64,000 nt of DNA from Aliiroseovarius marinus. GTDB taxonomy: Bacteria; Pseudomonadota; Alphaproteobacteria; Rhodobacterales; Rhodobacteraceae. The stretch spans positions 1 through 64,000 of the forward strand of contig NZ_ML178716.1 of assembly GCF_004360145.1 (NCBI RefSeq), in the 5' to 3' direction. Of this stretch, positions 13,632 through 34,963 are shown piece by piece. The position numbers were made by a program, and so were the translations under genes. The notes under the pieces were generated by a model. It was not told the origin of the DNA, did no database searches, and worked only from the letters and a program-made list of their open reading frames with translations. Positions within the stretch are counted from its first letter, which is position 1; each line of letters begins with the position of its first letter.

Positions 13632-14864
13632 TTAGTTGGACGTGGCGCCCTTGTACCAAGCGACGATAAAATCGCGACCCTCTTGATCCATCTCGATCGC
13701 ATTGGGTGGCGGCATGGCGTGGGACGCGCCCGCCTGCAGGTAGACTTGCTTGGCATGACGCGCGACATCAGCTTCGGTCTCTAGAACAACGCCCTTTGGC
13801 GCCCAGTACATGCCATCCCATGACGGCTCGCGGGCGTGGCACATCGAACAGTTGCCGACCACGGCGTAAAACGCATCTTCGAACCCATCGGCCGCGGCAA
13901 ACTTCTGCTCAAAAGTAGTCATCTCGCGCGCCTCGGCATCCTCGTAGGTTTCGCCAGTGCGCACCGTCGACAGCCACGCGATCAAGATCATCAGAAGCAC
14001 CGTCACCAACCATGTCCAGTTCGGCCCCCTGCCCGTCTTGTGCATGGTGTTGAAGTAGTGACGGATAGTAACGCCCGTCAGGAAGATCAGGCTGGCAATG
14101 ATCCAAGAGTACTGGGTACCGAACGCCAACGGATAGTGGTTCGCCAGCATCAGGAACACGACCGGAAGGGTCAGATAGTTGTTGTGGGTCGAGCGCACCT
14201 TGGCGATCTTGCCGTATTTCGCATCCGGCGTGCGGCCATTCTTAAGGTCATCCACAACGATGCGCTGGTTGGGCATGATCTGGAAGAACACGTTGGCCGT
14301 CATGATAGTCGCCGTAAACGCCCCCAGATGCAGAAGCGCCGCGCGCCCCGTGAAGATCTGGTTATAGCCCCATGACATCGCCACAAGGATCACAAACAAC
14401 AGCAGCATCAGAAGCGTTGGGTTCTCGCTCAGCTTAGATTTGCACATCTGGTCATAGAGCAGCCAGCCGATCGTCAGCGATCCGCCCGAGATCAAAATGC
14501 CCTGCCATAGCGATAGATCGGCCTTGGTCGGGTCCAGCAAGAACAGCTCTCCGCCGACCCAATAGATGATCATCAAAAGCGCCGCGCCCGACAGCCATGT
14601 CGTGTAGCTTTGCCATTTGTGCCATGTCAGATGCTCGGGCATCTCGGATGGGGCCACAAGGTATTTGACCGTGTGATAGAACCCGCCACCGTGGACTTCC
14701 CATTCCTCGCCATAGGCGCCGTCGGGCAGATTGGGATTGGGTTTCAGCATCAGATCAAGCGCGATGAAATAGAATGACGCCCCGATCCACGCCATCGCGG
14801 TGATGACATGAAGCCACCGCACAGAAAACGCGATCCAGTCCCACATAATTGCCAGGTCGTACAT
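13632..14864 (-). CDS. puuD: Urate hydroxylase PuuD, cytochrome c-fused membrane protein
   Basis: A 410-residue protein with about eight transmembrane helices (residues 10-300) followed by a cytochrome c domain. The haem motif CSMCH is at residues 339-343 and a distal methionine is likely in SHAMPPPNA. This is the architecture of the PuuD urate oxidase, which oxidises urate to 5-hydroxyisourate and passes electrons to a cytochrome c oxidase instead of making hydrogen peroxide. Neighbours encoding HIU hydrolase and OHCU decarboxylase confirm the role. The gene is divergent from a LysR gene across a 98-bp region with two palindromes. No soluble uricase is present in the window. Confidence 0.92.
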   Translation of the reverse strand: MYDLAIMWDWIAFSVRWLHVITAMAWIGASFYFIALDLMLKPNPNLPDGAYGEEWEVHGGGFYHTVKYLVAPSEMPEHLTWHKWQSYTTWLSGAALLMIIYWVGGELFLLDPTKADLSLWQGILISGGSLTIGWLLYDQMCKSKLSENPTLLMLLLFVILVAMSWGYNQIFTGRAALLHLGAFTATIMTANVFFQIMPNQRIVVDDLKNGRTPDAKYGKIAKVRSTHNNYLTLPVVFLMLANHYPLAFGTQYSWIIASLIFLTGVTIRHYFNTMHKTGRGPNWTWLVTVLLMILIAWLSTVRTGETYEDAEAREMTTFEQKFAAADGFEDAFYAVVGNCSMCHAREPSWDGMYWAPKGVVLETEADVARHAKQVYLQAGASHAMPPPNAIEMDQEGRDFIVAWYKGATSN

Positions 14865-14897
14865 GGCATACCTCCAGTTTTCGTCTTAGCGACACTC

Positions 14898-14938
14898 TAT
14901 GCTAAGCATATTTATTCTGGTATTGCTGCTAAATACCA
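14898..14938. promoter_or_regulatory. Two palindromes in the puuD/LysR intergenic region
   Basis: TATGC-TAA-GCATA occupies 14898-14910, and TGGTATT with AATACCA (7-base spacer) occupies 14918-14938. They lie between the divergent puuD and LysR start codons. Both are compatible with a LysR tetramer bound at a recognition site and an activation site controlling both genes. Confidence 0.6.
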
Positions 14939-14962
14939 AGCAGCATCAAAAAAAACAGAACA

Positions 14963-15880
14963 ATGTCCTACCTCGCCAACATCCGAACCTTTGTCCGCGT
15001 CTATGAATTGGGCAGCATGTCCGCGGCTGGACGCGACCTTCGGGTGTCGCCTGCGGTGACATCCTCGCGCATTTCACAGCTCGAAGACTATCTGGGCGTC
15101 CGGTTATTTCAACGCACCACACGCAGTCTGGCCCCCACGGAACAGGGCGAGCGGTTCTATCGCGGCGCAACGGAAATCCTTGAAGCCGTTGAGAATGCCG
15201 AGGCACAAATTGTTGATATTACAGATAATCCCAAAGGGCCGCTCTATGTCGCTGCCCCGTTGGGCGTCGGGCGTCGTCTGATCGCCCCCTTGGTGCCGGA
15301 CTTTCTGAAAAAATACCCGGAAGTCAGCGTGCGCCTGCGCCTGACCGACCGCAAAGTGGACCTGACCACCGAGGGGCTCGATCTCGCGTTCTTCCTTGGG
15401 CAACCGGAAGACAGCAACCTGAAGATCCGCAAAATTGCGGATGTCGAACGCGTCCTCTGTGCGACGCCTGAGTATATTAAGCAACGCGGCATGCCGCGGA
15501 ACGGCGACGACCTGATCAACGATGGGCATGAATGCCTGAACCTGCGCTTCCCCGGCGCGACCGAATTCCAGTGGCTACTCACCACGAAAGACGGCCCGAA
15601 ACGCTTTCGCGTAACGGGGCGCTATGAATCGGATGACGGAGATGTACTGACCGATTGGGCGCTGGGTGGAAACGGCATCGCGATGAAGCCGGTTTTCGAA
15701 ATCTCGGAACACCTGAAGTCGGGGCGGCTGGTGCCCGTCGCCACCGAAACCCCGCCCGAACCGATCCAGATGGCTTGCTTGTTCACCCATCGACGCGGTC
15801 AGGATCCCAAGTCTCGCTTGTTTATGGAGTTCGTGATCGACCGGATCGCGACCAGCATCCGCAGCACGGATCAGGGCTAG
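14963..15880 (+). CDS. LysR-family regulator of the purine cluster (paralogue 1)
   Basis: A 305-residue LysR regulator. The N-terminal winged helix contains VSPAVTSSRISQLEDYLGVRLFQ (split here by description: residues about 29-51), followed by a sensor domain from about 90. It is very similar throughout to the regulator at 27754 (shared segments RLFxRTTRSLxPTE, GRRxIAPLVPxF and DRKVDxxxxGLDxAFF), so the two are paralogues flanking the purine genes. Divergence from puuD points to urate or another purine intermediate as the likely effector, which is inference. Confidence 0.88.
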   Translation: MSYLANIRTFVRVYELGSMSAAGRDLRVSPAVTSSRISQLEDYLGVRLFQRTTRSLAPTEQGERFYRGATEILEAVENAEAQIVDITDNPKGPLYVAAPLGVGRRLIAPLVPDFLKKYPEVSVRLRLTDRKVDLTTEGLDLAFFLGQPEDSNLKIRKIADVERVLCATPEYIKQRGMPRNGDDLINDGHECLNLRFPGATEFQWLLTTKDGPKRFRVTGRYESDDGDVLTDWALGGNGIAMKPVFEISEHLKSGRLVPVATETPPEPIQMACLFTHRRGQDPKSRLFMEFVIDRIATSIRSTDQG

Positions 15881-15882
15881 GT

Positions 15883-16236
15883 TTAGCTGCCGCGATAGGT
15901 CGAATACCCGAAGGGCGATAGAAGCAGTGGCACGTGATAGTGCGATGCCTCGGACATGCCGAAGCGCAGCGGGATCACATCCAGAAATCGGGGCGCTTCA
16001 GGCGGAACACCGATGCTGTCTAGGTAATCCCCCGCGTAAAACACAAGCTCATACTCGCCGGTCTCAAATTTCTCGGCAGGCAGGATCTGTTCATCCGTCC
16101 GCCCATCGTCGTTGGTCACCAGCGTTTTAAGCAGAGTGCGCTCAGCGCCATCCAGCCGAAACAGCTCGATCTTCAAGCCCTCAGCGGGACACCCGCGGGC
16201 GGTATCAAGCACATGCGTGGTCAGGTAGCCTGTCAT
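15883..16236 (-). CDS. uraH: 5-hydroxyisourate hydrolase (transthyretin-like)
   Basis: At 117 residues this is the normal length for bacterial HIU hydrolase. It has the N-terminal motif LTTHVLDTARGCPA and the diagnostic C-terminal tetrapeptide YRGS, with the active-site His in HYHVPLLLSPFGYSTYRGS. It hydrolyses 5-hydroxyisourate from PuuD to OHCU in the cytoplasm. Its stop lies two bases from the convergent LysR stop, and it is divergent from puuE across 164 bp. Confidence 0.95.
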   Translation of the reverse strand: MTGYLTTHVLDTARGCPAEGLKIELFRLDGAERTLLKTLVTNDDGRTDEQILPAEKFETGEYELVFYAGDYLDSIGVPPEAPRFLDVIPLRFGMSEASHYHVPLLLSPFGYSTYRGS

Positions 16237-16400
16237 CTTCGGTGTCTCCTATATGGGCTTTTGCTTGGCACCCTCTTCTTAGTCTGGAAGCGCAGATGCA
16301 CACAGAGCCCGACTGCCAAACAATCCTTCTTATTTATTTTGAAAGTGTGTGCAGATTTTCTGACCTAGAATGACATTCAAGACTAGCAAAGGGAAACCAC

Positions 16401-17813
16401 GTGACACGATACCCACGAGACATGACCGGATACGGCGCCAAGCCACCGGTCGTCAAATGGCCGGGCGACGCAAAGATCGCCGTTCAGATCGTCCTGAACT
16501 ATGAAGAAGGCGGCGAGAACTGCGTCCTGCACGGGGACGCAGCATCCGAAGCCTTCCTGTCTGAAATCACCGGGGCACAGCCTTGGGCGGGACAGCGGCA
16601 TTGGAACATGGAGTCCATCTATGAGTACGGGTCGCGGGCCGGGTTCTGGCGTGTGCATCGCCTGCTTGGGGACCTGCCGGTCACGGTCTATGGCGTGGCC
16701 ACGGCTTTGGCGCGCGCGCCAGAACAAGTGAAGGCGATGAAGACCTCAAGCTGGGAGATCGCGAGCCACGGCCTGAAATGGGTCGAGCACAAGGATATGT
16801 CGCCTGACGAAGAGCGCGCGCAGATCCGCGAGGCAATCCGCCTGCATACCGAAGTCACCGGCACGCCCCCGCGCGGCTGGTACACCGGTCGCTGCTCGAT
16901 GAACACGGTGGCGTTGGCCGCTGAAGAAGGCGATTTCGCCTATATCGCTGACAGTTACGCCGATGATCTTCCCTATTGGATAAACGTTGGAGGCAAGGAC
17001 CAACTGGTGGTTCCCTACACGATGGATTGCAACGACATGCGTTTCGCGATTCAGGCGGGATACACAAATGGCGACCAGTTTGAGAGCTATCTGAAAGACA
17101 GCTTCGACATGCTCTATGCCGAAGGAAAATCCGGCGCACCCAAGATCCTGTCCATTGGCCTGCATTGCCGCCTGATCGGGCGTCCGGGCCGAGCCGCGGC
17201 GCTAAAACGCGTCATCGACTACTTCAAATCGCATGATGGTGTCTGGTTCGCTACCCGTGAGCAGATCGCAGATCACTGGGCCAAGGAGCACCCCCCGATG
17301 CAAGGTATAAAACCGTCCGAAATGGACCAAGAGACATTCGTGGCCGAGTTCGGCGGCGTGTTCGAACACAGCCCTTGGATTGCCGAGGGTGCGTTTGGTC
17401 TGGAACTGGGACCAACCCATGACACGGCTGCGGGCGTCCACAACGCCCTCGCGCGCATCTTCCGCAGCGCCAGCGAAGAGGCGCGCTTGGGCGTGCTGGT
17501 GGCACACCCCGACTTGGCCGGGAAACTCGCCGCCGCCGGACGGTTGACCGCGGAAAGCACCGCCGAACAGGCGGGCGCTGGTCTGGATATGTTGACGGAC
17601 GAGGAACGCACGACCTTCACGAAGCTCAACGAAGCGTACACGACCAAGCACGGCTTCCCCTTCATCATCGCGGTGAAGGACAACACCAAGCCGAGCATTC
17701 TGGAGGCGTTCCATCGCCGAATCGGCAATGACCGTGACACCGAGTTTGCCGAGGCCTGCCGACAGGTCGAACGCATCGCCGAGCTTCGTCTGGAAGAGAA
17801 GTTCGCCGCATGA
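16401..17813 (+). CDS. puuE: Allantoinase (PuuE) fused to OHCU decarboxylase (UraD)
   Basis: A 470-residue bifunctional protein. Residues 1 to about 302 are a cofactor-independent allantoinase of the polysaccharide deacetylase fold (start RYPRDMTGYG). Residues about 303-470 are a complete 2-oxo-4-hydroxy-4-carboxy-5-ureidoimidazoline decarboxylase, with VAHPDLAGKLA at 367-377 and KHGFPFIIAVK near the end. It makes S-allantoin from OHCU and then hydrolyses it to allantoate, so consecutive steps share one chain. The start is GTG at 16401 after AAAGGGAAA. An ATG at 16422 is an alternative. The gene overlaps allA by four bases. Confidence 0.93.
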   Translation: MTRYPRDMTGYGAKPPVVKWPGDAKIAVQIVLNYEEGGENCVLHGDAASEAFLSEITGAQPWAGQRHWNMESIYEYGSRAGFWRVHRLLGDLPVTVYGVATALARAPEQVKAMKTSSWEIASHGLKWVEHKDMSPDEERAQIREAIRLHTEVTGTPPRGWYTGRCSMNTVALAAEEGDFAYIADSYADDLPYWINVGGKDQLVVPYTMDCNDMRFAIQAGYTNGDQFESYLKDSFDMLYAEGKSGAPKILSIGLHCRLIGRPGRAAALKRVIDYFKSHDGVWFATREQIADHWAKEHPPMQGIKPSEMDQETFVAEFGGVFEHSPWIAEGAFGLELGPTHDTAAGVHNALARIFRSASEEARLGVLVAHPDLAGKLAAAGRLTAESTAEQAGAGLDMLTDEERTTFTKLNEAYTTKHGFPFIIAVKDNTKPSILEAFHRRIGNDRDTEFAEACRQVERIAELRLEEKFAA

Positions 17814-18298
17814 CCTTGACCATTACCCCCCTGCCCCTGACACCCGAGGCATTCGCGCCCTTTGGCGACGTGCTCGACACCACGGGCACGCCGGACAAAA
17901 TGATCAATCAAGGGCTTTGCGGGCGGTATCACGACCGGGCGACGCTGGATTTTTCAGATGGACAGGCCGGGATCAGCATCTTTGACGCCGAGGCACGTAG
18001 CCTGCCGCTGACGCTGGACATGGTCGAGCGCCATCCGGACGGAAGTCAGGCCTTCATCCCGATCAGCCGCGCACCCTATCTGGTGGTCGTCGCCCCGGAC
18101 GCGGGCGGCCAACCGGGGACACCCGTGGCCTTCATCGCACAGCCCGGACAGGGCGTGAATTACCACCGCAATACCTGGCACGGGGTCTGTGCCCCCCTCT
18201 CTGATCAGGGACAGTTTGCGGTGATCGACAGGATCGGCACGGGGCCGAACCTGCAGGAACACTGGTTCAAGGAGGAAATCAGAATCGAGAAGCCATAA
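17810..18298 (+). CDS. allA: Ureidoglycolate lyase
   Basis: A 162-residue cupin-fold enzyme of the AllA family with the characteristic segment NYHRNTWHGVCAPL, whose histidines line the active site, and the ending DRIGTGPNLQEHWF. It splits ureidoglycolate into glyoxylate and urea, the final carbon-releasing step of purine breakdown. The ATGA overlap with puuE-uraD shows translational coupling. Its product glyoxylate is the substrate of the bhc operon 11 kb downstream. Confidence 0.93.
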   Translation: MTLTITPLPLTPEAFAPFGDVLDTTGTPDKMINQGLCGRYHDRATLDFSDGQAGISIFDAEARSLPLTLDMVERHPDGSQAFIPISRAPYLVVVAPDAGGQPGTPVAFIAQPGQGVNYHRNTWHGVCAPLSDQGQFAVIDRIGTGPNLQEHWFKEEIRIEKP

Positions 18299-18348
18299 GC
18301 CCGAAGCCGGAAGAGAAGCCGTCACGGGCATCATAGGGAGGAAGAAAA

Positions 18349-19773
18349 ATGGCTAACACATCCATCGGGACGCCAGAGCAGCTGCGCGATCCCAATTACA
18401 CACCACCACTTGCCAAGGCTGTGCCCTTGGGCATCCAACACGTGCTGGCGATGTTCGTCTCGAACGTCACGCCAGCCATCATCATATGCGGGGCTGCTGG
18501 GTTCGGGTTCGGCTCGAACAGCCCGGACTTTCCGCAGATGATCTATATGATCCAGATGTCGATGTTCTTTGCGGGCGTCGCCACCTTGATCCAGACCATC
18601 GGTCTGGGCCCGGCAGGCGCCCGTCTGCCCATTGTTCAGGGTACATCTTTTGCCTTCATCCCGATCATGATCCCGCTGGTTGCGGGCAAAGGAGTTGATG
18701 CCATCGCGGTCCTGATGGGTGGGGTCATCGTGGGGGGCTTATTCCACGCATTCCTGGGCCTGTTCATCGGCAGGATTCGCTTTGCCTTGCCACCACTGGT
18801 GACAGGCCTTGTGGTGACCATGATCGGTCTGGCGCTGGTCAAGGTCGGCATTCAGTATGCTGCAGGCGGCGTTCCGGCTATCGGCAAGCCTGAATATGGA
18901 TCGCTGATCAACTGGACCATGGCGCTGGTCGTGATCTTCGTCACGCTTGGCCTTAAGTTCTATACCCGTGGCATGCTGTCGGTATCCGCGGTTCTGATCG
19001 GCCTGATCGTGGGCTACATCTTTGCCTTCGTCATCGGCGAGGTGAACCTTGGCAATGTTGGCCGCGCAGCGCCCTTCGCGCTTCCGAACCCCTTCCACTT
19101 CGGTGTCGAGTTCTCGGTCGCGGCGATCATCGGCTTCTGTCTGATGTCCTTCGTCTCTGCCGTGGAAACCGTTGGCGACGTCTCGGGGATTACCAAAGGT
19201 GGTGCCGGACGCGAAGCAACCGACACCGAGATCCAAGGCGCAACCTATGCTGACGGTATCGGCACGGCGGTCTCGGGCCTGTTCGGTGCTCTGCCCAACA
19301 CCTCGTTCAGCCAGAACGTGGGCCTGATTGCCATGACCGGCGTGATGAGCCGCCACGTGGTGACCATCGGTGCGATCTTCCTGATCCTTGCCGGGCTTAT
19401 CCCTAAAATCGGTGCGATCATCTCGTCCATCCCGATTGAAGTGCTGGGCGGTGGCGTGATTGTGATGTTCGGCATGGTGGCCTCGGCGGGTATTTCGATG
19501 CTCTCGGATGTCGACTGGAACCGCCGCAACATGGTGATCTTCGCTATTTCGCTGTCGCTGGGTCTTGGCCTTCAGTTGGAGCCGGGTGCGCTGCAGCATC
19601 TGCCCGCGACGATCAAGGTTCTGGCCACGTCGGGCATCCTGCCTGCCGCACTGATCGCGATTGTGCTGAACCTGGTGCTTCCCGAGGAACTGTCGAATGA
19701 ATCGACCGAAGAAGTCTCGGGCGGGTTATCTGGACACGGTCAAGGATCCCTGCCGAACAGCGATAACGGCTAA
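18349..19773 (+). CDS. NCS2 nucleobase (xanthine/urate) permease
   Basis: A 474-residue membrane protein with 12-14 hydrophobic helices of the nucleobase-ascorbate transporter family. The NAT signature [QEP]NxGx4T[RKG] is matched by QNVGLIAMTG, and FVSAVETVGDVSGITKG contains the conserved glutamate used for purine binding. It is a proton-coupled importer, probably of urate or xanthine given its place directly after puuE-uraD and allA. The bacterial xanthine and urate carriers cannot be separated by eye. A GGGAGGAAG ribosome site precedes the ATG. Confidence 0.9.
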   Translation: MANTSIGTPEQLRDPNYTPPLAKAVPLGIQHVLAMFVSNVTPAIIICGAAGFGFGSNSPDFPQMIYMIQMSMFFAGVATLIQTIGLGPAGARLPIVQGTSFAFIPIMIPLVAGKGVDAIAVLMGGVIVGGLFHAFLGLFIGRIRFALPPLVTGLVVTMIGLALVKVGIQYAAGGVPAIGKPEYGSLINWTMALVVIFVTLGLKFYTRGMLSVSAVLIGLIVGYIFAFVIGEVNLGNVGRAAPFALPNPFHFGVEFSVAAIIGFCLMSFVSAVETVGDVSGITKGGAGREATDTEIQGATYADGIGTAVSGLFGALPNTSFSQNVGLIAMTGVMSRHVVTIGAIFLILAGLIPKIGAIISSIPIEVLGGGVIVMFGMVASAGISMLSDVDWNRRNMVIFAISLSLGLGLQLEPGALQHLPATIKVLATSGILPAALIAIVLNLVLPEELSNESTEEVSGGLSGHGQGSLPNSDNG

Positions 19774-19797
19774 GAACGGCACTTAAGCAAAGTGAAA

Positions 19798-19844: not shown

Positions 19845-21197
19845 CTACGCCGCAACTGGTTGGGTCAGCTTCTCAGGATCCGCGCTCGTTGGCACAGATT
19901 TCGACGCGATCCCCGCCACATAGACCTGCTCAACTGCGCGATCATCCCCCAACATCTGCAGGATGAACAGTTCTTCGGATAGGGTCTCGGCCCGTTGCAT
20001 CCGAAGGTCCATCGCGTGGGTCGAGCGGGCGTTCAGAACCACAATATCGGCGTCCGTCCCCTCGGCCAGCGATCCGATCTTATCCGACAGACCTAGAACC
20101 TCGGCATTGCCACGGGTGATCCAGTCAAACGCCGCAAGCGGGTGCAGTTTCTGGTTCTGAAGCTGCAGGATCTTGTAGCCCTCATTCAGGGTCTGCAGCA
20201 TCGAATAGCTGGTCCCTGCCCCGACATCCGTAGCGATCCCGTTCTGAATTCCACGCGCACGAAGGCCCGCATCGTCAAACAAACCACTGCCCAAGAAAAG
20301 GTTCGAGGTCGGGCAGAAGACTGGCTTCGAGCGCGTCTCGGCCAGCACGTCAATCTCGCGCGGGGTTAGGTGAATGGCGTGCCCCAGCAAGGTCTTTTCA
20401 CCTAGCAATCCATAGTGCTCATAGACACCCAGATAGTCGGGCGCGTCGGGATAGAGTTCGGCGGTGAAGGTGATCTCGTCATGGTTTTCGCTCAGATGCG
20501 TTTGGACGTAGCATTCGGGATGCTCGGCCACCAACGCGCCCGCCATTTCCATCTGTTCAGGTGTCGAGGTGATCGCAAAGCGCGGCGTGATCGCATACTG
20601 CGCGCGGCCTTTGCCATGCCATTTCTCGATCAGCGCCTTACCGTCGTCAAAGCCCGTCTGCGGCGTATCCCGCAGCTCATCGGGGGCGTTGCGATCCATC
20701 ATGACCTTGCCGCTGATCATGCACATGTTGCGCTTGGCGGCTTCTGTGAACAGCGCGTCGACCGATCCCGCATGGACGGACCCAAAGGCAACTGCCGTGG
20801 TGGTGCCGTGGCCGGTCAGCAGATCACAGAAATGCGCGGCCATCGCAGCGGCGTGGGCATCGTCTGCAAAGCGGGTTTCTTCCGGGAATGTATAGGTGTT
20901 CAGCCAGTCCAGAAGCTGCGCGCCCCACGAGGCGATCACCTGCACCTGTGGAAAGTGGACATGCATGTCGATGAAGCCAGGCATCAAGAGATGCGGGCGG
21001 TGGTCGATTACCGTCGCATCTGGTGCGCGGGCAGAAATCTGGTCGTAGGGACCGGTCGCTTCGATCTTGCCGTTTGCGATCAGGATCGCGCCATCCGCTA
21101 CGTAGTTGTAAGCCTCGGTGTCGTTTTCATCCAAAGGCTTGCGGTTAAAGTCGAGCGTCCGCCCCCGCAGGAGCGTCCGCGGCTGTGTGTTCGTCAT
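19845..21197 (-). CDS. guaD: Guanine deaminase
   Basis: A 450-residue amidohydrolase with the zinc-binding motif PGFIDMHVHFPQ and the guanine deaminase segments HGTTTAVAFGSVH, QTHLSENHDE and GHAIHL. It deaminates guanine to xanthine and so feeds the xanthine dehydrogenase encoded upstream in the same direction. The start at 21197 (MTNTQPRTLL) fits the family. A longer frame runs upstream but its 41 extra residues look non-coding. It appears to be the last gene of an xdhABC-permease-guaD transcription unit. Confidence 0.93.
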   Translation of the reverse strand: MTNTQPRTLLRGRTLDFNRKPLDENDTEAYNYVADGAILIANGKIEATGPYDQISARAPDATVIDHRPHLLMPGFIDMHVHFPQVQVIASWGAQLLDWLNTYTFPEETRFADDAHAAAMAAHFCDLLTGHGTTTAVAFGSVHAGSVDALFTEAAKRNMCMISGKVMMDRNAPDELRDTPQTGFDDGKALIEKWHGKGRAQYAITPRFAITSTPEQMEMAGALVAEHPECYVQTHLSENHDEITFTAELYPDAPDYLGVYEHYGLLGEKTLLGHAIHLTPREIDVLAETRSKPVFCPTSNLFLGSGLFDDAGLRARGIQNGIATDVGAGTSYSMLQTLNEGYKILQLQNQKLHPLAAFDWITRGNAEVLGLSDKIGSLAEGTDADIVVLNARSTHAMDLRMQRAETLSEELFILQMLGDDRAVEQVYVAGIASKSVPTSADPEKLTQPVAA

Positions 21198-22928: not shown

Positions 22929-23780
22929 TCACTGCGCCGCGATATGCGAGACAGCGCCCCAGTCAGGGGATTTTGCGGCAGTTTCAGAGGTCAATGCCGT
23001 GATCACTTCTGCCGCCACGAGGGCGGCGATCACGGCGGGCCGCTTGTCGCGGCTACCGCCTGCCCCGATGGGGCAGATCAAGGGTGCGACAGACAGGTCG
23101 TCGCAATTCTTACGGGTCCAGCTGGCGAATTTCGCCCGCTTTGTGGCGGACCCAATCATTCCAACATAGGCTGCATCGCCACGTTCAAGCGCGGCCGAAG
23201 TCAGCAGAAAATCCAACCCGTGGTCATGGGTCAGCACGATGAAGGCGCTGCCTTTCGGCGCGTTCATCACGTCGAATTCAGGCACGACACTCAGCCGTTT
23301 TTCGACAGAGGCGTGCGACAAAGCTAGCTCGTCTTCGCGTTGGTCTACCAACACGCAGCGCACCGGAAGGTGCTGGAACAGTTCCGCCAGCGCGCGTCCC
23401 ACATGGCCCGCCCCCAGCACATAGACCGCAGGCTGCGCGGCTTCTTCCATGTGCACAGCATCCAAGGCGATATCTTTGTCCGTCGCGCTCATCCGTGCGA
23501 GCGTGATTTCGACCCGTCCACCGCAGCATTGCCCGATCTCCGGCCCAAGGGGGACATCCAAATGTTGCGACAGATCGCCATTCGCCAGCAGGTTTCGCGC
23601 GGCCTCAATCGCCAGATGCTCTAACTGCCCACCTCCGATGGTCCCCCACAACCCGTCAGCCCGCACAAACATTTCGGTCCCGGCCGTGCGGGGGGAGGAA
23701 CCACGCACTTTGGTCAGTCGCACGCTGGCGACCGGGCCGGGACCTGTCAGGAACTGTTGAAGGGATTGAGCGGAATACAT
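22929..23780 (-). CDS. xdhC: Xanthine dehydrogenase accessory factor XdhC
   Basis: A 283-residue protein of the XdhC/CoxI family with the conserved GQCCGGRVEITL segment containing the paired cysteines and a Rossmann-like C-terminal half (VYVLGAGHVGRALAELF). XdhC binds molybdenum cofactor, promotes its sulfuration and inserts it into XdhB. The start at 23780 lies four bases after the xdhB stop. An upstream in-frame start would overlap xdhB by 26 bases. Confidence 0.93.
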   Translation of the reverse strand: MYSAQSLQQFLTGPGPVASVRLTKVRGSSPRTAGTEMFVRADGLWGTIGGGQLEHLAIEAARNLLANGDLSQHLDVPLGPEIGQCCGGRVEITLARMSATDKDIALDAVHMEEAAQPAVYVLGAGHVGRALAELFQHLPVRCVLVDQREDELALSHASVEKRLSVVPEFDVMNAPKGSAFIVLTHDHGLDFLLTSAALERGDAAYVGMIGSATKRAKFASWTRKNCDDLSVAPLICPIGAGGSRDKRPAVIAALVAAEVITALTSETAAKSPDWGAVSHIAAQ

Positions 23781-23784
23781 CGGA

Positions 23785-27753: not shown

Positions 27754-28674
27754 ATGGCCTATATGGAAAGCCTGCGAGTCTTCTGCCGCGTGGTCGAGCT
27801 GGGCAGCATTACCTCGGGCGGGCGCGACCTGCGTTTGACGCCAGCCGTGGCCAGCAAACGGATCAAGGAACTTGAGAAACATCTGGGGGTTCGACTGTTC
27901 AATCGGACGACTCGGTCGCTGACCCCGACTGAGGTCGGCCAGCAGTTCTATTCCGAAGCCCTGCGCATTCTGGAGACGGTGGACGAGGCCGAAAGCGTTG
28001 TGGCGCGCTTTTCGGACGCACCGCGCGGCACGGTGCGGGTGACCGCGCCCATGGCGGCAGGGCGCCGGATCATTGCCCCATTGGTGCCCGAGTTTGTGGA
28101 TCGAAATCCGAATATTGACGTGCGGATGCGGATGTCGGATCGCAAGGTCGATATTCTTGCAGACGGTCTGGACGTGGCATTCTTCGTTGGCACGCCGCAT
28201 GACAGCAGTCTGAAACTGCGCAAAATCGCCGACTGCACGCGTGTGCTCTGTGCGACCCCCGGATATCTGGAACAAGCGGGCACGCCGCAGCATCCCGATG
28301 ACCTGCTACAGGGTCACAACTGCCTGTTGCTGCGCTATCCCCGGTCACCCGAGTATTTCTGGACACTTAACACTGAGGCTGGGTATCGCAAGTTCGAGGT
28401 GTCCGGAAAATATGACGCGGATGACAGCGATGTGCTGCTGAACTGGGCGCTGGACGGGCGCGGAATCGTGAACAAGCCGCTCTTTGAAGTGGCCGAGCAT
28501 CTACAATCGGGTCGATTGGTAGAGATCTTGCCCAATGCCCGCCCCATGCCGTCCATGTTCGGGTGCCTGTACCCCCACAAGAAACTGCAAGATCCGAAGA
28601 TCCGCCTGCTTGTCGATTTTGTAGCGCGCCGTGGATTGGAACTGCTGAAGGCAAACACCGCGCGCACAACGTAA
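27754..28674 (+). CDS. LysR-family regulator of the purine cluster (paralogue 2)
   Basis: A 306-residue LysR regulator with helix-turn-helix LTPAVASKRIKELEKHLG and a sensor domain. It closely resembles the regulator at 14963 along its whole length, apart from the sensor loops, and probably arose by duplication. It is divergent from xdhA and likely controls the xdh operon in response to a purine or intermediate. Its stop faces bhcD across a terminator. Confidence 0.88.
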   Translation: MAYMESLRVFCRVVELGSITSGGRDLRLTPAVASKRIKELEKHLGVRLFNRTTRSLTPTEVGQQFYSEALRILETVDEAESVVARFSDAPRGTVRVTAPMAAGRRIIAPLVPEFVDRNPNIDVRMRMSDRKVDILADGLDVAFFVGTPHDSSLKLRKIADCTRVLCATPGYLEQAGTPQHPDDLLQGHNCLLLRYPRSPEYFWTLNTEAGYRKFEVSGKYDADDSDVLLNWALDGRGIVNKPLFEVAEHLQSGRLVEILPNARPMPSMFGCLYPHKKLQDPKIRLLVDFVARRGLELLKANTARTT

Positions 28675-28676
28675 AA

Positions 28677-28725: not shown

Positions 28726-29691
28726 TCAGAAATCGACTTCGATGGCGATACCTTTTTCGATGGCAAGCTCCACGACCGACGCCGCTACGGCAAGGTCCTG
28801 CAGCCCAACGCCTGTGCCATCAAACAGCGTGATCTGATCGTCCGAGCTCCGCCCCGGGTTCGTCCCGTTGATCACCGCGCCGATCTGCGCCACGTCGCTT
28901 TCCAGGATCAGTCCTTGCCCCACGGCGTGCTGAGCCTCGCCAATCGAAATGGACTGCGCCACCTCATCGGTGAAGACGTCGGCCTTGACCAGAAGCTGCG
29001 GATCAACCTCTTGCTTGCCCTTCGTGTCGGTCCCCATGCAGGCAATATGCGTGCCGGGGCTGACTTGGCCTGCCCCAAGGATGGCGTCGAAGGAAGACGT
29101 GATCGAGATGATCACATCAGCCTCGGTCATGCCATCCAGCTCGACCGCCTCGAAGGGCAAGCCAGCCTCACTGGCAACCTTTTCGAGGTTCGGCAGCATC
29201 TCAGGATGCAGGTTCCAGCCAATCACCTTTTCAAACGAGCGCTGCTCAAGCGCGGCGCGCAGCTGGAACGTCGCCTGATGACCCGCGCCGATCATGCCAA
29301 TCACCTTCGCATCGTCTCGCGCAAGGTGTTTGATCGACACCGAAGACGCGGCAGCGGTACGTAGGGCGGTCAACAGGTTCCCCCCCACCATCGCCTTGGC
29401 CTTGCCGGTGTCCGGGTCAAACAGAAACACGGTGGATTGGTGATTGATCAGCCCGCGCTTTTCCAGATTGTGGGGCCAGTAACCGCCCGCCTTTAGCCCC
29501 AAAGTCAGCCCGGCCTGATCGAACCCGCCCTTAAAGCCGTAAAGCGCATCCTCATGGCCAATCGCCTCGCGGATCACCGGGAAATTATAGGCGTCGCCCG
29601 ACGCCATCGCCGCGAAAACTTGCTCCACCGCGCTAAAGGCGGCCTCGCGGGTCATCAGGCCCGCAATCTCGCGTTCTGGAACGATATACAT
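28726..29691 (-). CDS. bhcD: Iminosuccinate reductase of the beta-hydroxyaspartate cycle
   Basis: A 321-residue member of the ornithine cyclodeaminase/mu-crystallin fold with the NAD(P)-binding glycine motif GMIGAGHQATFQ. By sequence alone it would be called ornithine cyclodeaminase. As the last gene of a bhcABCD operon it is best read as BhcD, which reduces iminosuccinate to L-aspartate and so regenerates the amino donor of the cycle. The start at 29691 has AAAGGAC upstream. A hairpin separates it from bhcC. Confidence 0.88.
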   Translation of the reverse strand: MYIVPEREIAGLMTREAAFSAVEQVFAAMASGDAYNFPVIREAIGHEDALYGFKGGFDQAGLTLGLKAGGYWPHNLEKRGLINHQSTVFLFDPDTGKAKAMVGGNLLTALRTAAASSVSIKHLARDDAKVIGMIGAGHQATFQLRAALEQRSFEKVIGWNLHPEMLPNLEKVASEAGLPFEAVELDGMTEADVIISITSSFDAILGAGQVSPGTHIACMGTDTKGKQEVDPQLLVKADVFTDEVAQSISIGEAQHAVGQGLILESDVAQIGAVINGTNPGRSSDDQITLFDGTGVGLQDLAVAASVVELAIEKGIAIEVDF

Positions 29692-29705
29692 GTCTGTGTC
29701 CTTTG

Positions 29706-29735: not shown

Positions 29736-29781
29736 AGTTCAGGAGGGTTAGGCCCGTCGCCGGACCAACCTCAGAGGTTCC

Positions 29782-30945
29782 TTAAAACGCCTTACCGCGC
29801 GCCGAGACCGGCCAGAGGGTTTCGACCTTGCCGTTCCGCACGCCGACATACCAATCATGGACGTTGGCGGTTGGGTCGCAGTGGCCAGGCACAAGGCGCA
29901 GTTTGTCGTTCACTTTCAGAGCACCGTCCGGATCAGACACCACGCCATGTTCATCCGAGCATTTGATGTATTCGACATCATCACGCCCAAAGACCACGGG
30001 CAGACCGCTATCGATCGACTGCGCCTTCAGGCCCGCATCTACGATGGCCTTGTCGGCCTTGGTGTGGCTCATCACCGAGGTCAGGATGAAGAACGCGTTC
30101 TCCCATTCACCTTGGTCGATCCGGTTACCATCCTTGTCCAGAATGCGCCCGTAATCCGCATCCATGAACGCGTAGGACCCGCACTGCAGCTCGTTATACA
30201 CGCCCGAGTTCGACTCGAAATAATAGGAGCCCGTGCCCCCGCCCGAGACCAGCTCGCAGTCGATACCTTCCGCCTTCAGGCCGTCCACCGCGGCTTTCAC
30301 CAGGCCGATGGCGATATCCAACTTCTCTTTGCGCGCCTCATAGGTATCGAGGTGCTGCATCGCGCCCTGATAGGCCTGAATACCGGTGAACTTCAGGTTG
30401 TCGGCGGCGTTAATCGCCTTAGCAATCTCGATCACATCCGCGGTCGAATTCACACCGCAGCGACCAGCGCCACAGTCGATCTCGATGAAGGTTTCAAGTT
30501 CGGTGCCGTGCTTCTGCGCGGCCACCGAAAGGTCGGCCACATTGTCCAGATCATCGACACAGACGATGATCCGGCTGCCCAGCTTCGGCAGCTGCGCGAG
30601 ACGGTCGATCTTCAGCGGATCGCGCACTTGGTTCGACACAAGAACGTCTTTGATCCCGCCGCGCACGAACACCTCGGCTTCAGAGACTTTCTGACAGCAG
30701 ACGCCAACTGCGCCGCCCAGTTTTTCCTGCAGCTTGGCCACATCCACGGACTTGTGCATCTTGCCATGCACCCGGTGGCGCATCCCATGCGCCTTGGCAT
30801 AGTCGCCCATCTTCTTGATGTTGCGCTCCAGGGCGTCCAGATCCAGCACAAGCGCCGGGGTCTGGATGTCAGCCTCGTCTATGCCCGGCAAGGCCGGAAC
30901 GTCAAAGCCAACGATAAGGTTATCGAAATTGGTCACTGCGTTCAT
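29782..30945 (-). CDS. bhcC: erythro-beta-hydroxyaspartate aldolase
   Basis: A 387-residue fold-type III PLP enzyme of the D-threonine aldolase family. The segment HRVHGKMHKSVDVAKLQ contains the PLP lysine region, and the C-terminal LVPGHCDPTANVHDWYVG holds the histidine/aspartate metal site. As BhcC it condenses glyoxylate and glycine into beta-hydroxyaspartate. The ATG at 30945 is favoured over 30951 because it leaves seven bases after GAAGGAG. It follows bhcB by 12 bp. Confidence 0.9.
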   Translation of the reverse strand: MNAVTNFDNLIVGFDVPALPGIDEADIQTPALVLDLDALERNIKKMGDYAKAHGMRHRVHGKMHKSVDVAKLQEKLGGAVGVCCQKVSEAEVFVRGGIKDVLVSNQVRDPLKIDRLAQLPKLGSRIIVCVDDLDNVADLSVAAQKHGTELETFIEIDCGAGRCGVNSTADVIEIAKAINAADNLKFTGIQAYQGAMQHLDTYEARKEKLDIAIGLVKAAVDGLKAEGIDCELVSGGGTGSYYFESNSGVYNELQCGSYAFMDADYGRILDKDGNRIDQGEWENAFFILTSVMSHTKADKAIVDAGLKAQSIDSGLPVVFGRDDVEYIKCSDEHGVVSDPDGALKVNDKLRLVPGHCDPTANVHDWYVGVRNGKVETLWPVSARGKAF

Positions 30946-30957
30946 TGTCATTCTCCT

Positions 30958-31923
30958 TCACAGAGTCCACGGCAGGCGGTCGAGATCGACATTGCCGCCG
31001 GTGATAATCAGGCCCACGCGCTTGCCTTTGAACGCGTCGGGATTCTTCAAGATGGTGGCGAGCGGTACGGCACTGGACGGCTCCATAACCACGCGCAGGT
31101 GCTTCCAAATCAGCTTCATCGCGTCGATGATCTCCGGGTCTGACGCAGTGTAGATTTCGCTCACATGGTTCGACACGAAGTGCCAGGTCAGGTCCTTCAG
31201 CGGCACCAGCAACCCATCCGCGATGGTTTTGGGTGCGTCATCCGCGATGATGTAGCCTGCCTTGAAGCTGCGATAGGCGTCATCCGCCTGCTCAGGCTCG
31301 GCTGCGATCACTTGCGTCTCTGGGGCCAGCGTCGACAGCGTCAGGCAGGTGCCCGAGATCATGCCGCCGCCCCCGATGGGCGCAACGACTGCATCCAGAC
31401 CGTCGGTCTGCTCGATAAACTCGCGCGCGCAAGTGCCCTGCCCCGCGATCACCCGGTGGTCGTTATAGGGATGCACGAAATCCCCACCAGTTTCGGCCTG
31501 CACACGCGCAAAGGTTTCTTCGCGCGACGAGGTCGACGGCTCACATTCCGTGATCTTGCCCCCGTATCGACGCACCGTGTCTTTCTTGGCCTGCGGCGCG
31601 GTGCGCGGCATGACCACGTTGCAGGGAATGCCCCGCTTCATCGCGGCGTAAGACAGGCACGAGGCATGGTTGCCTGACGAATGGGTGGCGACACCCTTGG
31701 CCGCCTGTTCCTCGTCCAGCCCAAACACCGCGTTCGAGGCACCACGGACTTTAAACGCCCCCGGTTCTTGAAAGTTCTCGCATTTGAAGAACAGCTCGGC
31801 CCCGGTCAGTTCGTTCAGGTAATCCGAGGTCCGAACCGGCGTGCGGCGGATATAGGGCTGGATGCGCGCATGCGCCTCCAGCATGTCGTCAAAGGTCGGG
31901 ATATACATCGGCGCATCCTTCAT
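30958..31923 (-). CDS. bhcB: beta-hydroxyaspartate dehydratase
   Basis: A 321-residue fold-type II PLP enzyme resembling threonine dehydratase and serine racemase. The PLP lysine is in GAFKVRGASNA, the substrate loop is SSGNHA and the phosphate-binding loop is GGGGM. As BhcB it removes water and gives iminosuccinate for BhcD. The ATG at 31923 overlaps the bhcA stop by four bases (ATGA). An ATG five codons later is possible. Confidence 0.9.
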   Translation of the reverse strand: MKDAPMYIPTFDDMLEAHARIQPYIRRTPVRTSDYLNELTGAELFFKCENFQEPGAFKVRGASNAVFGLDEEQAAKGVATHSSGNHASCLSYAAMKRGIPCNVVMPRTAPQAKKDTVRRYGGKITECEPSTSSREETFARVQAETGGDFVHPYNDHRVIAGQGTCAREFIEQTDGLDAVVAPIGGGGMISGTCLTLSTLAPETQVIAAEPEQADDAYRSFKAGYIIADDAPKTIADGLLVPLKDLTWHFVSNHVSEIYTASDPEIIDAMKLIWKHLRVVMEPSSAVPLATILKNPDAFKGKRVGLIITGGNVDLDRLPWTL

Positions 31924-33113
31924 TCCGCAGCCTCTTGCTGGCTCATGGCGGCACTTCCGCGATAATATTCCTGCGCGGTCGCAACCCCGAGACCCAGCGT
32001 GATGTCCAAGCCAAGGTCGACCATGCACATCTCGGCCGTCGCGATGCCTGACAGGGCCATAACGTCGGTCATGCTGCCCAGATGGCCGATGCGGAATACT
32101 TTGCCGGCGACCTCGCCCAGCCCGACCCCAAAGGCGACGCCGTATTTTTCGGCCGCCAAGGTGACGATGTCCGTGGCATTGAAATGTGCAGGCGTGCGAA
32201 TGGCGCTGACCGTGTCCGAGTACACGTCAGGCGACGCCGCACACAGCTCCAACCCCCACGCGCCCACGGCGGCGCGTACACCTTCTGCAATGCGGTTGTG
32301 CCGGGCAAAGACATTCTCCAACCCTTCGTCCAAAAGCATTTTGCATGCTTCGTTCAGGCCGTTCATCAGCCCAACTGCGGGCGTGTAGGGATAGGCGTTA
32401 TTGGCATAGCCCTTCGCCATGTCGTGCACGTCAAAGAAGGTGCGCGGCAGCGTGCCGGTCTTGGTCGCCTCCATCGCCTTGGGGCTGAACCCCACGATGG
32501 CCAGACCGGCGGGCAGCATGAAGCCCTTCTGCGACCCGGTCACAGCCACATCAACGCCCCATTCGTCAAAACGGAAATCCATCGACGCGATCGAGCTTAC
32601 GCCATCGACGAACAGCAGCGCCGGGTGGCCTGCGGCGTCCAGTGCGCGGCGCACCGCGGCAATGTCAGACTTCACGCCGGTGGCGGTTTCGTTATGCGTC
32701 GCCAGAACCGCTTTGATCTCGTGACCTTTGTCGGCGGTCAGGATATCCTCATAGCGATCTGCGGGAATACCTTCACCCCACGGGGTTTCCACAATGGTGA
32801 CCTCCAGCCCGTGACGCTGACACATGTCGATCCAGCGATGCGAGAACATGCCGTTGCGCGCCGCAAGGATCTTGTCACCCGCGGACAGCGTGTTGGTCAG
32901 GGCCGTTTCCCAACCGCCCGTGCCGCTGGAGGGGAAAATGAAGACCTCGGCCGATTGGCTTTTCAAGATCTTCTTAACACCTGCGCGCGCCGGATGCAGG
33001 ATTTGACCGAACAGCGGCGAACGATGGTCGATCGTCGGCATGTCGGACGCCTTGCGCAGGCTTTCGGGGATGTTGGTCGGGCCCGGAATGAAAACGGGGT
33101 TCTGAAAACTCAT
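31920..33113 (-). CDS. bhcA: L-aspartate:glyoxylate aminotransferase
   Basis: A 397-residue class V aminotransferase with the PLP lysine in TGSQKGFMLPAG and the serine-glyoxylate aminotransferase-like N-terminus PGPTNIPESLRKA. As BhcA it transfers the amino group of aspartate to glyoxylate, producing glycine and oxaloacetate. This is the net output of the cycle. AAGGAGAA precedes the start at 33113. It is the first gene of the operon, divergent from bhcR. Serine-glyoxylate aminotransferase is the alternative call, but the operon order decides against it. Confidence 0.9.
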   Translation of the reverse strand: MSFQNPVFIPGPTNIPESLRKASDMPTIDHRSPLFGQILHPARAGVKKILKSQSAEVFIFPSSGTGGWETALTNTLSAGDKILAARNGMFSHRWIDMCQRHGLEVTIVETPWGEGIPADRYEDILTADKGHEIKAVLATHNETATGVKSDIAAVRRALDAAGHPALLFVDGVSSIASMDFRFDEWGVDVAVTGSQKGFMLPAGLAIVGFSPKAMEATKTGTLPRTFFDVHDMAKGYANNAYPYTPAVGLMNGLNEACKMLLDEGLENVFARHNRIAEGVRAAVGAWGLELCAASPDVYSDTVSAIRTPAHFNATDIVTLAAEKYGVAFGVGLGEVAGKVFRIGHLGSMTDVMALSGIATAEMCMVDLGLDITLGLGVATAQEYYRGSAAMSQQEAAE

Positions 33114-33173
33114 GGGGTTCTCCTTCGTCATTGAAGCCACAATATCGGGCGTCCATTTCGAGGGATATTTTTT

Positions 33174-33188
33174 TGAAATCGTTTTTCA
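33174..33188. promoter_or_regulatory. Palindrome upstream of bhcA
   Basis: TGAAA and TTTCA flank a 5-base centre in the AT-rich bhcA/bhcR gap, 61 bp before the bhcA start. It resembles the half-sites of the palindrome at 33245. A role as a second BhcR site is inference. Confidence 0.45.
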
Positions 33189-33228
33189 TTTTCTCAACAG
33201 GGCGATATTTATATTATTTTTCAATCCA

Positions 33229-33261
33229 TTGACTTTTTCATATTGTGAATTTATTTTTCAC
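33229..33261 (+). promoter_or_regulatory. bhcR promoter with overlapping operator
   Basis: A -35 box TTGACT (33229-33234) and a -10 box TATTTT (33252-33257) are separated by 17 bp. The inverted repeat GTGAA-N7-TTCAC (33245-33261) covers the -10 box. A regulator bound there would block the promoter, as expected for an autorepressing IclR protein. The bhcR start is 24 bp downstream of the -10 box. Confidence 0.65.
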
Positions 33262-33280
33262 TTAAAATGCGAGGGTTTTT

Positions 33281-34126
33281 ATGGAATCTCAAAAAGACGG
33301 CATTTCGCCCACCCGTAAGGCCCGCGGACGCCCCCGTGACTGGCATGACAAAACCGCTCAGAACACGATCAAATCGCTTGATCGCGCGATGGAGGTGTTT
33401 GAACATCTCAGCGAAGCGCAGGGCAAACCCCTGTCCGTGATTGCCGAGGAAATGGGGCAGTCGCCCGCGACCGTCTATCGGGTTCTGGTAACGCTTGAGA
33501 CGCGCGGGCTTGTGGAGTTCGACACTGTCGAACAGGTCTGGTTCATCGGCGCCCGCGCCTTTGTCATCGGCGCGCGTTTTCTACGGCGCACCAGCCTTGT
33601 CGACCGGGCCCGTCCCATTCTGCGCAAGCTGATGGAAGCCACCGGCGAAACAGCGAACCTGGGCATCGAGAAAGAAGGGTCCGTCCTGTTTCTAAGCCAA
33701 GTCGAGACTCACGCCAACATCCGAGCTTTCTTCCCCCCTGGGTCTTTGTCGCCAATGCACTCGTCGGGAATTGGCAAGGCGGTGTTGGCCTATATGGATG
33801 AGGACAGGTTGAACCGGGTACTCGATGCCGCAACTTTCGAGACCTTCACCGAGCACACGATCACGACAGCAGAAGAACTTCGTGCGGACCTAGATCAGAT
33901 CCGCACGCGTGGATACTCCATCGACAATGAGGAGAAAAACGCCGGGATGCGGTGCATCGCGGCGCCTGTGTTTGACATGAACGGCGAGGTCGTCGCTGGT
34001 ATTTCGGTGTCCGGCCCCACCAGCCGCGTTGGTCAAGACCAAACCGAGCGCTTAAGTCGCGCCGTCATAGACGCATCACTCCGCCTGACCGAAGCCATCG
34101 GTGGGATCGCACCCCAGACGCTCTGA
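33281..34126 (+). CDS. bhcR: IclR-family regulator of the beta-hydroxyaspartate cycle
   Basis: A 281-residue IclR regulator: winged helix at about 28-90 (SVIAEEMGQSPATVYRVLVTLETRG, described in part) and an effector-binding domain at about 100-275 with SPMHSSGIGKAVLAYM. BhcR homologues sense glyoxylate and control bhcABCD. The gene sits in the expected place, divergent from bhcA across a 167-bp AT-rich region with palindromes. Confidence 0.9.
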   Translation: MESQKDGISPTRKARGRPRDWHDKTAQNTIKSLDRAMEVFEHLSEAQGKPLSVIAEEMGQSPATVYRVLVTLETRGLVEFDTVEQVWFIGARAFVIGARFLRRTSLVDRARPILRKLMEATGETANLGIEKEGSVLFLSQVETHANIRAFFPPGSLSPMHSSGIGKAVLAYMDEDRLNRVLDAATFETFTEHTITTAEELRADLDQIRTRGYSIDNEEKNAGMRCIAAPVFDMNGEVVAGISVSGPTSRVGQDQTERLSRAVIDASLRLTEAIGGIAPQTL

Positions 34127-34129
34127 CGC

Positions 34130-34963
34130 TTAGTGACCGCCACCCAGCCGCAACGGCATGTGGCGGTTTACATCCTTGTAGAGCAGATACCGGAACCGAC
34201 CCGGCCCGCCCGCATAACAGGCCTGCGGACAGAACGCGCGCAACCACATGAAATCTCCAGCCTCAACCTCGACCCAATCTTGATTCAGGCGATAGGCCGC
34301 CTTGCCTTCCAGCACGTACAGCCCGTGCTCCATCACATGGGTTTCCAGAAACGGGATCACCCCGCCCGGCTCGAAGGTCACGATCGTCACATGCATGTCA
34401 TGCCGCAGGTCATTTGGGTCGACAAACCGCGTCGTGGCCCATGTGCCATCCGTGTCCGGCATCGGCGTGGGCGCGACATCCTTTTCGTTCAGGATCAACA
34501 CATCAGGCGCGTCCAGTCCCTCGACCCGCTGATAGGCCTTGCGGATCCAGTGGAACCGCAGAACCTCGTCGCCTTTGTTGTGCAGCGTCCACTGCTCAGA
34601 TGGCGGCAGATACGCATAGCCGCCCGGCGTCAGCTCGTGAACCTCACCTGCGATTTCCAACGTTGCGGCGCCTTCGACCACGAACAACACAGCTTGCGCG
34701 TCTGGATCATCCTCGGGGCGATCAGAGCCGCCACCCGGCTGAACCTCCATGATGTATTGCGAGAAGGTCTCGGCAAAACCGCTGAGCGGACGCGACAGCA
34801 CCCAAAGCCGTGTGCCTGTCCAGAAGGGCAAGAAGCTGGTTACAATATCCTGCATCACCCCCTTAGGGATCACGGCATACGCATCCGTAAAAACGGCTCG
34901 ATCGGTCAGAAGCTGGGTCTGAGCGGGAAGTCCCCCGTGCGGTGCGTAATATTGTGTGCTCAT
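34130..34963 (-). CDS. allE: (S)-ureidoglycine aminohydrolase
   Basis: A 277-residue bicupin protein of the AllE/UGlyAH family. The C-terminal cupin has THVMEHGLYVLEGKAAYRLN, whose histidine and glutamate bind manganese. It hydrolyses S-ureidoglycine to ureidoglycolate and ammonia, the step immediately before AllA. GGAG stands five bases before the start at 34963. It is convergent with bhcR, three bases away. The allantoate amidohydrolase that should precede it is not in the window. Confidence 0.92.
   Translation of the reverse strand: MSTQYYAPHGGLPAQTQLLTDRAVFTDAYAVIPKGVMQDIVTSFLPFWTGTRLWVLSRPLSGFAETFSQYIMEVQPGGGSDRPEDDPDAQAVLFVVEGAATLEIAGEVHELTPGGYAYLPPSEQWTLHNKGDEVLRFHWIRKAYQRVEGLDAPDVLILNEKDVAPTPMPDTDGTWATTRFVDPNDLRHDMHVTIVTFEPGGVIPFLETHVMEHGLYVLEGKAAYRLNQDWVEVEAGDFMWLRAFCPQACYAGGPGRFRYLLYKDVNRHMPLRLGGGH

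Follow-up and report, generated by a model that had tools for sequence, protein, structure and literature searches.

The window analysed here comprises the first 64,000 nucleotides of contig NZ_ML178716.1 of Aliiroseovarius marinus and contains, at positions 13632-34993, a cluster in which genes for purine breakdown surround those of the beta-hydroxyaspartate cycle (BHAC), a route of glyoxylate assimilation encoded by bhcABCD and regulated by bhcR. Families were called using the curated cut-offs of NCBIfam or, for LysR domains and proteins without an NCBIfam match, using Pfam. All genes listed in a first-pass annotation of this DNA were found in the interval that it had given, by NCBIfam cut-offs or, for PuuD, by Pfam, and the end of that interval, 34963, agrees with taking an internal ATG as start of the last gene, whose open reading frame (ORF) ends at 34993.

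Gene content of the purine-bhc cluster

The four BHAC enzymes are encoded together on the minus strand, as bhcD (iminosuccinate reductase, 28726-29691, ORF open to 29733; NF045643, 590 bits, cut-off 500), bhcC (3-hydroxy-D-aspartate aldolase, 29782-30951; NF045642, 758 bits, cut-off 690; 698 bits to PDB 6qkb), bhcB (beta-hydroxyaspartate dehydratase, 30958-31923, ORF open to 32028; NF045641, 583 bits, cut-off 550) and bhcA (aspartate-glyoxylate aminotransferase, 31920-33113, ORF open to 33140; NF045640, 748 bits, cut-off 650). The IclR-family regulator gene bhcR lies on the plus strand (33281-34126; NF045644, 397 bits, cut-off 350). All five proteins exceed the NCBIfam equivalog cut-offs, in agreement with the complete set claimed in the first-pass annotation. 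Three bases beyond bhcR, and convergent with it, lies a gene for an allE-type cupin, by model name a bifunctional allantoate/ureidoglycine hydrolase (34130-34963, minus strand, ORF open to 34993; NF040771, 512 bits, cut-off 350; NF008373, 536 bits, cut-off 445). At the other end, bhcD is convergent with a LysR-type regulator gene (27754-28674, plus strand; Pfam LysR domains) that adjoins xdhA. The cupin gene is separated from the other purine genes by bhc, which therefore lies within the purine cluster.

Xanthine dehydrogenase is encoded on the minus strand by xdhA (small subunit, 26122-27585, ORF open to 27597; TIGR02963, 678 bits, cut-off 467), xdhB (molybdenum subunit, 23785-26109; TIGR02965, 1323 bits, cut-off 850) and xdhC (accessory protein, 22929-23810, start uncertain; TIGR02964, 274 bits, cut-off 162), and guanine deaminase, on the same strand, by guaD (19845-21197, with an internal ATG taken as start and the ORF open to 21320; TIGR02967, 557 bits, cut-off 375). 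Between guaD and xdhC lies a gene for a membrane protein (21280-22863, minus strand) that matched neither NCBIfam nor Pfam and is described from its homologues: those at the same position in loci L160-L162 are annotated 'xanthine/uracil/vitamin C permease', and the gene stands beside guaD and xdhC in several other linked loci too. On the plus strand follow each other puuE-uraD, a single ORF for a fusion of allantoinase and OHCU decarboxylase (16401-17813; TIGR03212, 500 bits, cut-off 425; TIGR03164, 205 bits, cut-off 96), allA, whose ureidoglycolate lyase yields glyoxylate and urea (17810-18298; NF002952, 267 bits, cut-off 260), and a gene for a pbuX-like NCS2 permease of the xanthine/urate type (18349-19773; TIGR03173, 434 bits, cut-off 414). 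The cluster begins with puuD, for a membrane urate oxidase of the cytochrome c type (13632-14864, minus strand; Pfam Urate_ox_N, 434 bits, no NCBIfam match), and uraH, for 5-hydroxyisourate hydrolase (15883-16236, minus strand; TIGR02962, 124 bits, cut-off 87), and another LysR-type regulator gene adjoins both (14963-15880, plus strand; Pfam LysR domains). Further out, adjoining puuD, positions 4716-13307 hold hydantoinase A/B genes, an ABC importer and a Peripla_BP_6 binding protein; in L162 a distant hydantoinase pair (only 28-29% identical) also follows the purine genes.

The window thus encodes the whole series of steps leading from guanine to glyoxylate, the allantoate step resting on the name of NF040771, 'bifunctional allantoicase/(S)-ureidoglycine aminohydrolase', one of four listed models whose cut-offs the cupin protein exceeds in all four cases. 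A missing allantoate step, a gap in the pathway as given in the first-pass annotation, was set aside on the strength of this match; the cupin enzyme would fill it. The model itself may go back to Puggioni and others 2014 (Biochemistry). No separate AllC was matched at E<=1e-80 in the window genome, where allantoicase proper was not searched for, and a search for AllC over 61 genomes returned a single match, below the cut-off. Because the purine genes, the cupin model match and bhc are all present in the window, the route from guanine to oxaloacetate is predicted to be fully encoded there.

The window genome carries second purine genes elsewhere, namely cupin and uraD on contig C5 and xdhB on contig C3. 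Proteins of the C5 set are 73% (cupin), 72% (UraH), 68% (PuuE-UraD) and 56% (AllA) identical to those of the window, with no puuD within the 40 kb examined; the C3 set, in which xdhABC stands apart from the C5 genes, is 48% (XdhA) and 53% (XdhB) identical. In four congeners without bhcB (G003, G013, G017 and G019), cupin, puuE-uraD and allA lie close together, with similar identities.

Recurrence of the linkage in the genus, the family and beyond

The first-pass annotation had called for a survey of bhc-purine adjacency in other genomes and had named adjacency in one strain only as one outcome that would count against it. Within the genus, represented by 20 congeners and the genome of the window, 14 genomes carry bhcB above the cut-off. 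In all 13 that could be tested, the cupin gene adjoins bhc and further purine genes lie within the 40 kb examined; in the fourteenth, bhc sits on a 3.7-kb contig. The genus falls into two subgroups, in one of which BhcR is 49-51% identical to that of the window and the permease and purine genes are farther from bhcD; the order cupin-bhcR-bhcA is kept in this subgroup also.

A family-wide survey with a single genome for each genus, 295 in all, found bhcB in 127 (E<=1e-120), in 125 of them above the curated cut-off. At least 43 of these 127 genera have a purine gene no more than 25 kb from bhcB, two of them through uraD only; this is a lower bound, since uraD was scored only among the matches listed and fragmented assemblies and contig ends hide linkage. 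Adjacency is therefore not limited to one strain, and the genus and family surveys together rule out chance adjacency in a single strain. The cupin gene is itself common, being found in 263 of the 295 genomes. Of 115 genomes with both genes, 32 have the cupin gene within 4 kb of bhcB (3003-3927 bases), against 0.24 expected from random placement, and 41 have it within 25 kb; no P value is claimed because genera are not independent. As a control, a glcD-like glycolate oxidase gene, in every case matching below the curated cut-off, was present in 119 of the 127 bhcB-bearing genomes and lay within 25 kb of bhcB in only two (3.4 and 22.1 kb away), and in 2 of 108 genomes the cupin gene was no farther than 25 kb from glcD. 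Co-occurrence as the whole cause of the linkage was rejected on these figures for cupin and glcD. Three genomes carry bhcB in duplicate: G099 and G143 each have one cupin-linked and one unlinked copy, and in G217 neither copy is linked. Glyoxylate carboligase (gcl) was found in none of the 295 genomes, that of the window included, at E<=1e-200 with up to four candidates scored per genome and a positive E. coli control; the rival glyoxylate pathway therefore seems absent, and the window does not belong to the known class of purine clusters joined to gcl and the glycerate route.

Named relatives give a similar picture. Among the matches listed, the 80 loci closest to the window BhcC, a biased sample, include 41 in which one or more purine genes lie in the available flank; these are found in Leisingera, Ruegeria, Shimia, Sulfitobacter, Roseovarius, Paracoccus, Frigidibacter and Limibaculum among others, and also in Fulvimarina, Nitratireductor and Oricola, which belong to other families. 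Adding six plasmid-collection records, that of P. denitrificans included, and the window gives 87 loci, 47 of which have a purine gene within 9 kb of bhc. If the border layout is defined by the nearest recognised purine gene on each side within 9 kb, these 47 loci show, by hand count, 14 layouts, or at least 7 when an empty side is treated as compatible with any gene, some empty sides stemming from short flanks. A glcD-like gene near bhc was found in none of the 87 (one query, above 150 bits). The bhcB and bhcC of a contig from Spirulina subsalsa FACHB-351 place inside Paracoccus on the tree described below, so that this contig of a cyanobacterial record is probably a contaminant. Rhodobacteraceae bacterium KLH11 carries bhc twice, on separate scaffolds; the copies hardly differ in the genes that they share, and one of them (L096) shows bhcB, bhcC and bhcD only.

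On a tree of concatenated BhcABCD with 93 rows (51 linked, 28 unlinked and 14 unscored for short flanks; P. denitrificans was left out), linkage requires 9 changes, compared with a shuffled mean of 23.3, gains and losses not being distinguishable in these counts. This clustering implies that much of the linkage is due to common descent. A branch with a Shimodaira-Hasegawa-like approximate likelihood ratio test (SH-aLRT) value of 99 separates 59 rows including the window (46 linked, 8 unlinked, 5 unscored) from 34 others (5 linked, 20 unlinked, 9 unscored).

Paracoccus denitrificans, plasmid-borne copies and the BhcR operator

In the P. denitrificans record HAMBI_2443 (L163), BhcC is identical to PDB 6qkb and 78% identical to BhcC of the window. 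Its locus has the same five bhc genes in the same order as the window. The published role of the system is the assimilation of glycolate and glyoxylate; the two loci differ in that bhc is flanked by xdh and the cupin gene in the window, whereas in P. denitrificans a permease gene, an 8-oxoguanine deaminase gene and uraH follow bhc in line. There, the pbuX-family permease gene (511 bits, cut-off 414) starts 41 bases beyond bhcD and overlaps the deaminase gene (698 bits, cut-off 532), and uraH begins 16 bases further on. 8-Oxoguanine deaminase yields urate. After uraH comes a terminator-like hairpin at 25416-25434 of that stretch and then puuD; the stretch holds 8 terminator-like sites against a shuffled mean of 4.2, two weak ones lying within the permease gene. 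None of the remaining purine genes was seen in its 41 kb. From this spacing, the bhc and purine genes of P. denitrificans form an apparent operon. The order bhcD-permease-deaminase recurs in four further Paracoccus loci (L098, L107, L111 and L119), where the genes overlap slightly or stand 37-50 bases apart, and the deaminase gene was not seen in the other four named Paracoccus loci (L072, L102, L113 and L139).

A bhcC gene is present in 118 PLSDB records, 44 of them from Pseudosulfitobacter. Ten plasmid records were examined and five are linked, P. denitrificans included. In Leisingera aquaemixtae a 108.7-kb plasmid carries the whole island in one stretch: modABC, cupin, bhcRABCD, an AmiS/UreI transporter, permease, allA, puuE, uraH, puuD, xdhABC and guaD. 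Xanthine dehydrogenase requires molybdenum, and modABC is a molybdate importer. A similar stretch occurs in Ruegeria sp. AD91A, modABC and guaD not being in the part shown, and in two P. pseudonitzschiae plasmids xdh, guaD and cupin adjoin bhc. No purine linkage was found within 12 kb of bhc in Phaeobacter pP75_g, Paracoccus marcusii, Aminobacter and Agrobacterium; at the edge of the Agrobacterium plasmid lies a xanthine-dehydrogenase-family set that is only 27-31% identical to that of the window. The Phaeobacter gallaeciensis plasmid pP75_g (L164, 31.9 kb, typed as conjugative) has bhcB-bhcC beside RidA, an FAD oxidoreductase and a TRAP transporter, adjoining mercury resistance genes and with no bhcA, bhcD or bhcR in the stretch. 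In the window itself, a short transposase-like ORF at 46407-46616, recognised by eye, may be the remnant of an insertion sequence.

Divergent bhcR and bhcA share a gap with a conserved palindrome, an arrangement that places the window among BHAC loci. The palindrome, TGAAA-N5-TTTCA, is present in 48 of 78 bhcR-bhcA gaps (shuffled mean 0.04), other spacings occurring in 0-2 of the 78, and from this conservation we infer that it is the binding site of BhcR. The window gap holds one exact copy (33174-33188) and one with a single mismatch (33246-33260) within a conserved block; an additional one-mismatch site, at 48674, is away from the purine and bhc genes. Across the 87 loci, where only genes homologous to those of the window were recognised, exact sites outside recognised genes precede bhcA in 45 cases and bhcR in 10, with 2 elsewhere. 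One-mismatch sites precede bhcR in 28 cases and bhcA in 14, with one each before xdhA (in L064, Aliiroseovarius sp. S1123, NZ_JALKBE010000001.1), the cupin gene (L112), puuE (L119) and bhcD; 36 are elsewhere and 8 within genes. Direct control of the purine genes of the window by BhcR is thus unsupported, the putative operator standing there only between bhcR and bhcA. Coupling between the two pathways, if any, would accordingly be mainly via glyoxylate itself. According to PMC11323563, bhc promoter activity in P. denitrificans rises with glyoxylate, and bhcR is required for growth on glyoxylate and glycolate.

Purines as a feed of the beta-hydroxyaspartate cycle

Together, gene content and neighbourhood lead us to think it very probable that the cluster is a single catabolic island leading from guanine, xanthine and urate to oxaloacetate, in which purine-derived glyoxylate would be assimilated by the BHAC, induced via BhcR. 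Guanine deaminase and xanthine dehydrogenase would produce urate, which PuuD, UraH and PuuE-UraD would convert to allantoate; the cupin enzyme would take allantoate to ureidoglycolate and AllA would split this into urea and glyoxylate. BhcR would sense glyoxylate and switch on bhcABCD, and the four Bhc enzymes would turn two glyoxylate into oxaloacetate. Purines would thus supply nitrogen and, through glyoxylate, carbon. By inference, flux would run from purine to the BHAC, purines would support growth as a source of carbon, and selection would hold the genes together. The proposal of the first-pass annotation that purines are a second glyoxylate source for the BHAC is in part borne out, by the recurring adjacency and the apparent operon of P. 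denitrificans. Its description of the pathway as carbon-conserving holds from glyoxylate onward and is overstated for the whole purine, three of whose five carbons are lost as CO2 or urea.

Several observations weigh against this island as a functional unit. In the window no common transcription unit joins purine and bhc genes, both neighbours of bhc being convergent with it, and no putative BhcR operator was found at the purine promoters. In a first draw, one of four genomes from other genera with a bhcB match was linked (G022): G021 and G035 were unlinked, and the bhcB-like gene of G034 scores below the cut-off. By the 25-kb test 84 of the 127 bhcB-bearing genera lack linkage, in a survey that takes bhcB alone as proxy for bhc, and R. 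pomeroyi DSS-3 has no purine linkage within 12 kb of bhc. Furthermore, bhc presence does not follow the purine pathway, the cupin gene being present in 115 of 127 genomes with bhcB and in 148 of 168 without.

Another view, to which we assign about an even chance, is that bhc is a plug-in module placed beside many glyoxylate sources, purines being one of them. On the Agrobacterium plasmid an alpha-hydroxy acid oxidase gene lies one gene from bhcR, on the Aminobacter plasmid bhc adjoins oxidoreductases, in G277 glcD is 3.4 kb from bhcB, and the 34-row branch of the bhc tree is mostly unlinked. The branch of the window is by contrast predominantly purine-linked, and for the window itself a plug-in module is compatible with the island proposed above. 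It is improbable, in our judgement, that the adjacency reflects shared mobility and not shared use, with accessory catabolic modules gathering on the same plasmids, chromids and islands: the plasmid-borne linked copies of Leisingera, Ruegeria AD91A and P. pseudonitzschiae, the frequency of bhcC in PLSDB and the clustering of linkage on the tree would all fit, but hitch-hiking explains poorly the several distinct border layouts, the tight operon-like spacing in Paracoccus and the near absence beside bhc of glcD, another glyoxylate source. We give very little credence to the idea that bhc merely removes toxic glyoxylate while purines feed nitrogen, any carbon gain being incidental. Since the cupin gene is widespread regardless of bhc, family members lacking bhc presumably use purines as well, perhaps for nitrogen; a four-enzyme cycle would, however, be a costly means of detoxification where malate synthase could serve. 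Moreover, P. denitrificans needs its bhc genes to grow on glyoxylate (PMC11323563).

The catabolic island favoured here has precedents in part. In P. aeruginosa, purine catabolism genes are contiguous with a glyoxylate assimilation pathway, the gcl cluster (PA1498-PA1502), which is allantoin-induced and required for growth when allantoin is the only source of carbon (PMC12694930). There, glyoxylate passes through glyoxylate carboligase with loss of CO2 (PMC11323563), whereas the BHAC of the window avoids that loss. The allantoin regulon of E. coli resembles the window in that an IclR-family regulator responsive to glyoxylate is associated with genes of purine and glyoxylate metabolism, and PMC11323563 reports BhcR as closely sister to the homologues of IclR and AllR. 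AllR, however, represses both the allantoin and the glyoxylate operons, while the putative BhcR operator of the window covers bhc only and its purine genes have two adjoining LysR genes; with no operator shared between the two gene sets, the window does not resemble a single co-regulated purine-BHAC regulon. Purines and allantoin are mentioned as sources of glyoxylate in the introduction of PMC11323563, in which the words xanthine, urate, uric and ureidoglycolate do not occur. At the level of titles and opening abstracts, we found no earlier report of bhc-purine linkage; a remark is possible in the founding 2019 Nature paper on the BHAC or in Cunliffe 2016. The latter reportedly describes the purine transcriptome of R. 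pomeroyi. Joining purine genes to glyoxylate assimilation is thus a known design with gcl; no account of its BHAC version, of how frequent that version is or of the layout in P. denitrificans was found in the prior literature covered.

More tentatively, and in our judgement less likely than not, the BHAC may be chiefly a purine-carbon pathway in a large branch of Rhodobacterales, having spread with purine genes, glycolate being secondary. Purine-linked and free bhc copies, and in Aliiroseovarius bhc-linked and free purine sets, might then represent separate carbon and nitrogen branches, and in P. denitrificans glyoxylate might, via BhcR, also induce purine/urate uptake and 8-oxoguanine deamination from the same operon.

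The BHAC has been discussed as a marine route for algal glycolate. If the present proposal is true, dissolved purines and urate would be a second natural carbon feed of the cycle, and a glycolate-only view of it would be incomplete, bhc being tied to purine genes in about one third of the bhcB-bearing genera of the family and rarely to glycolate oxidase. Strains of P. denitrificans deleted for bhcR and for bhcABCD exist (PMC11323563), so the question is testable at once in a species whose bhc genes run into urate-pathway genes. Recurrence in dozens of genera and in this model species suggests that purines may be an overlooked natural feed for the BHAC.

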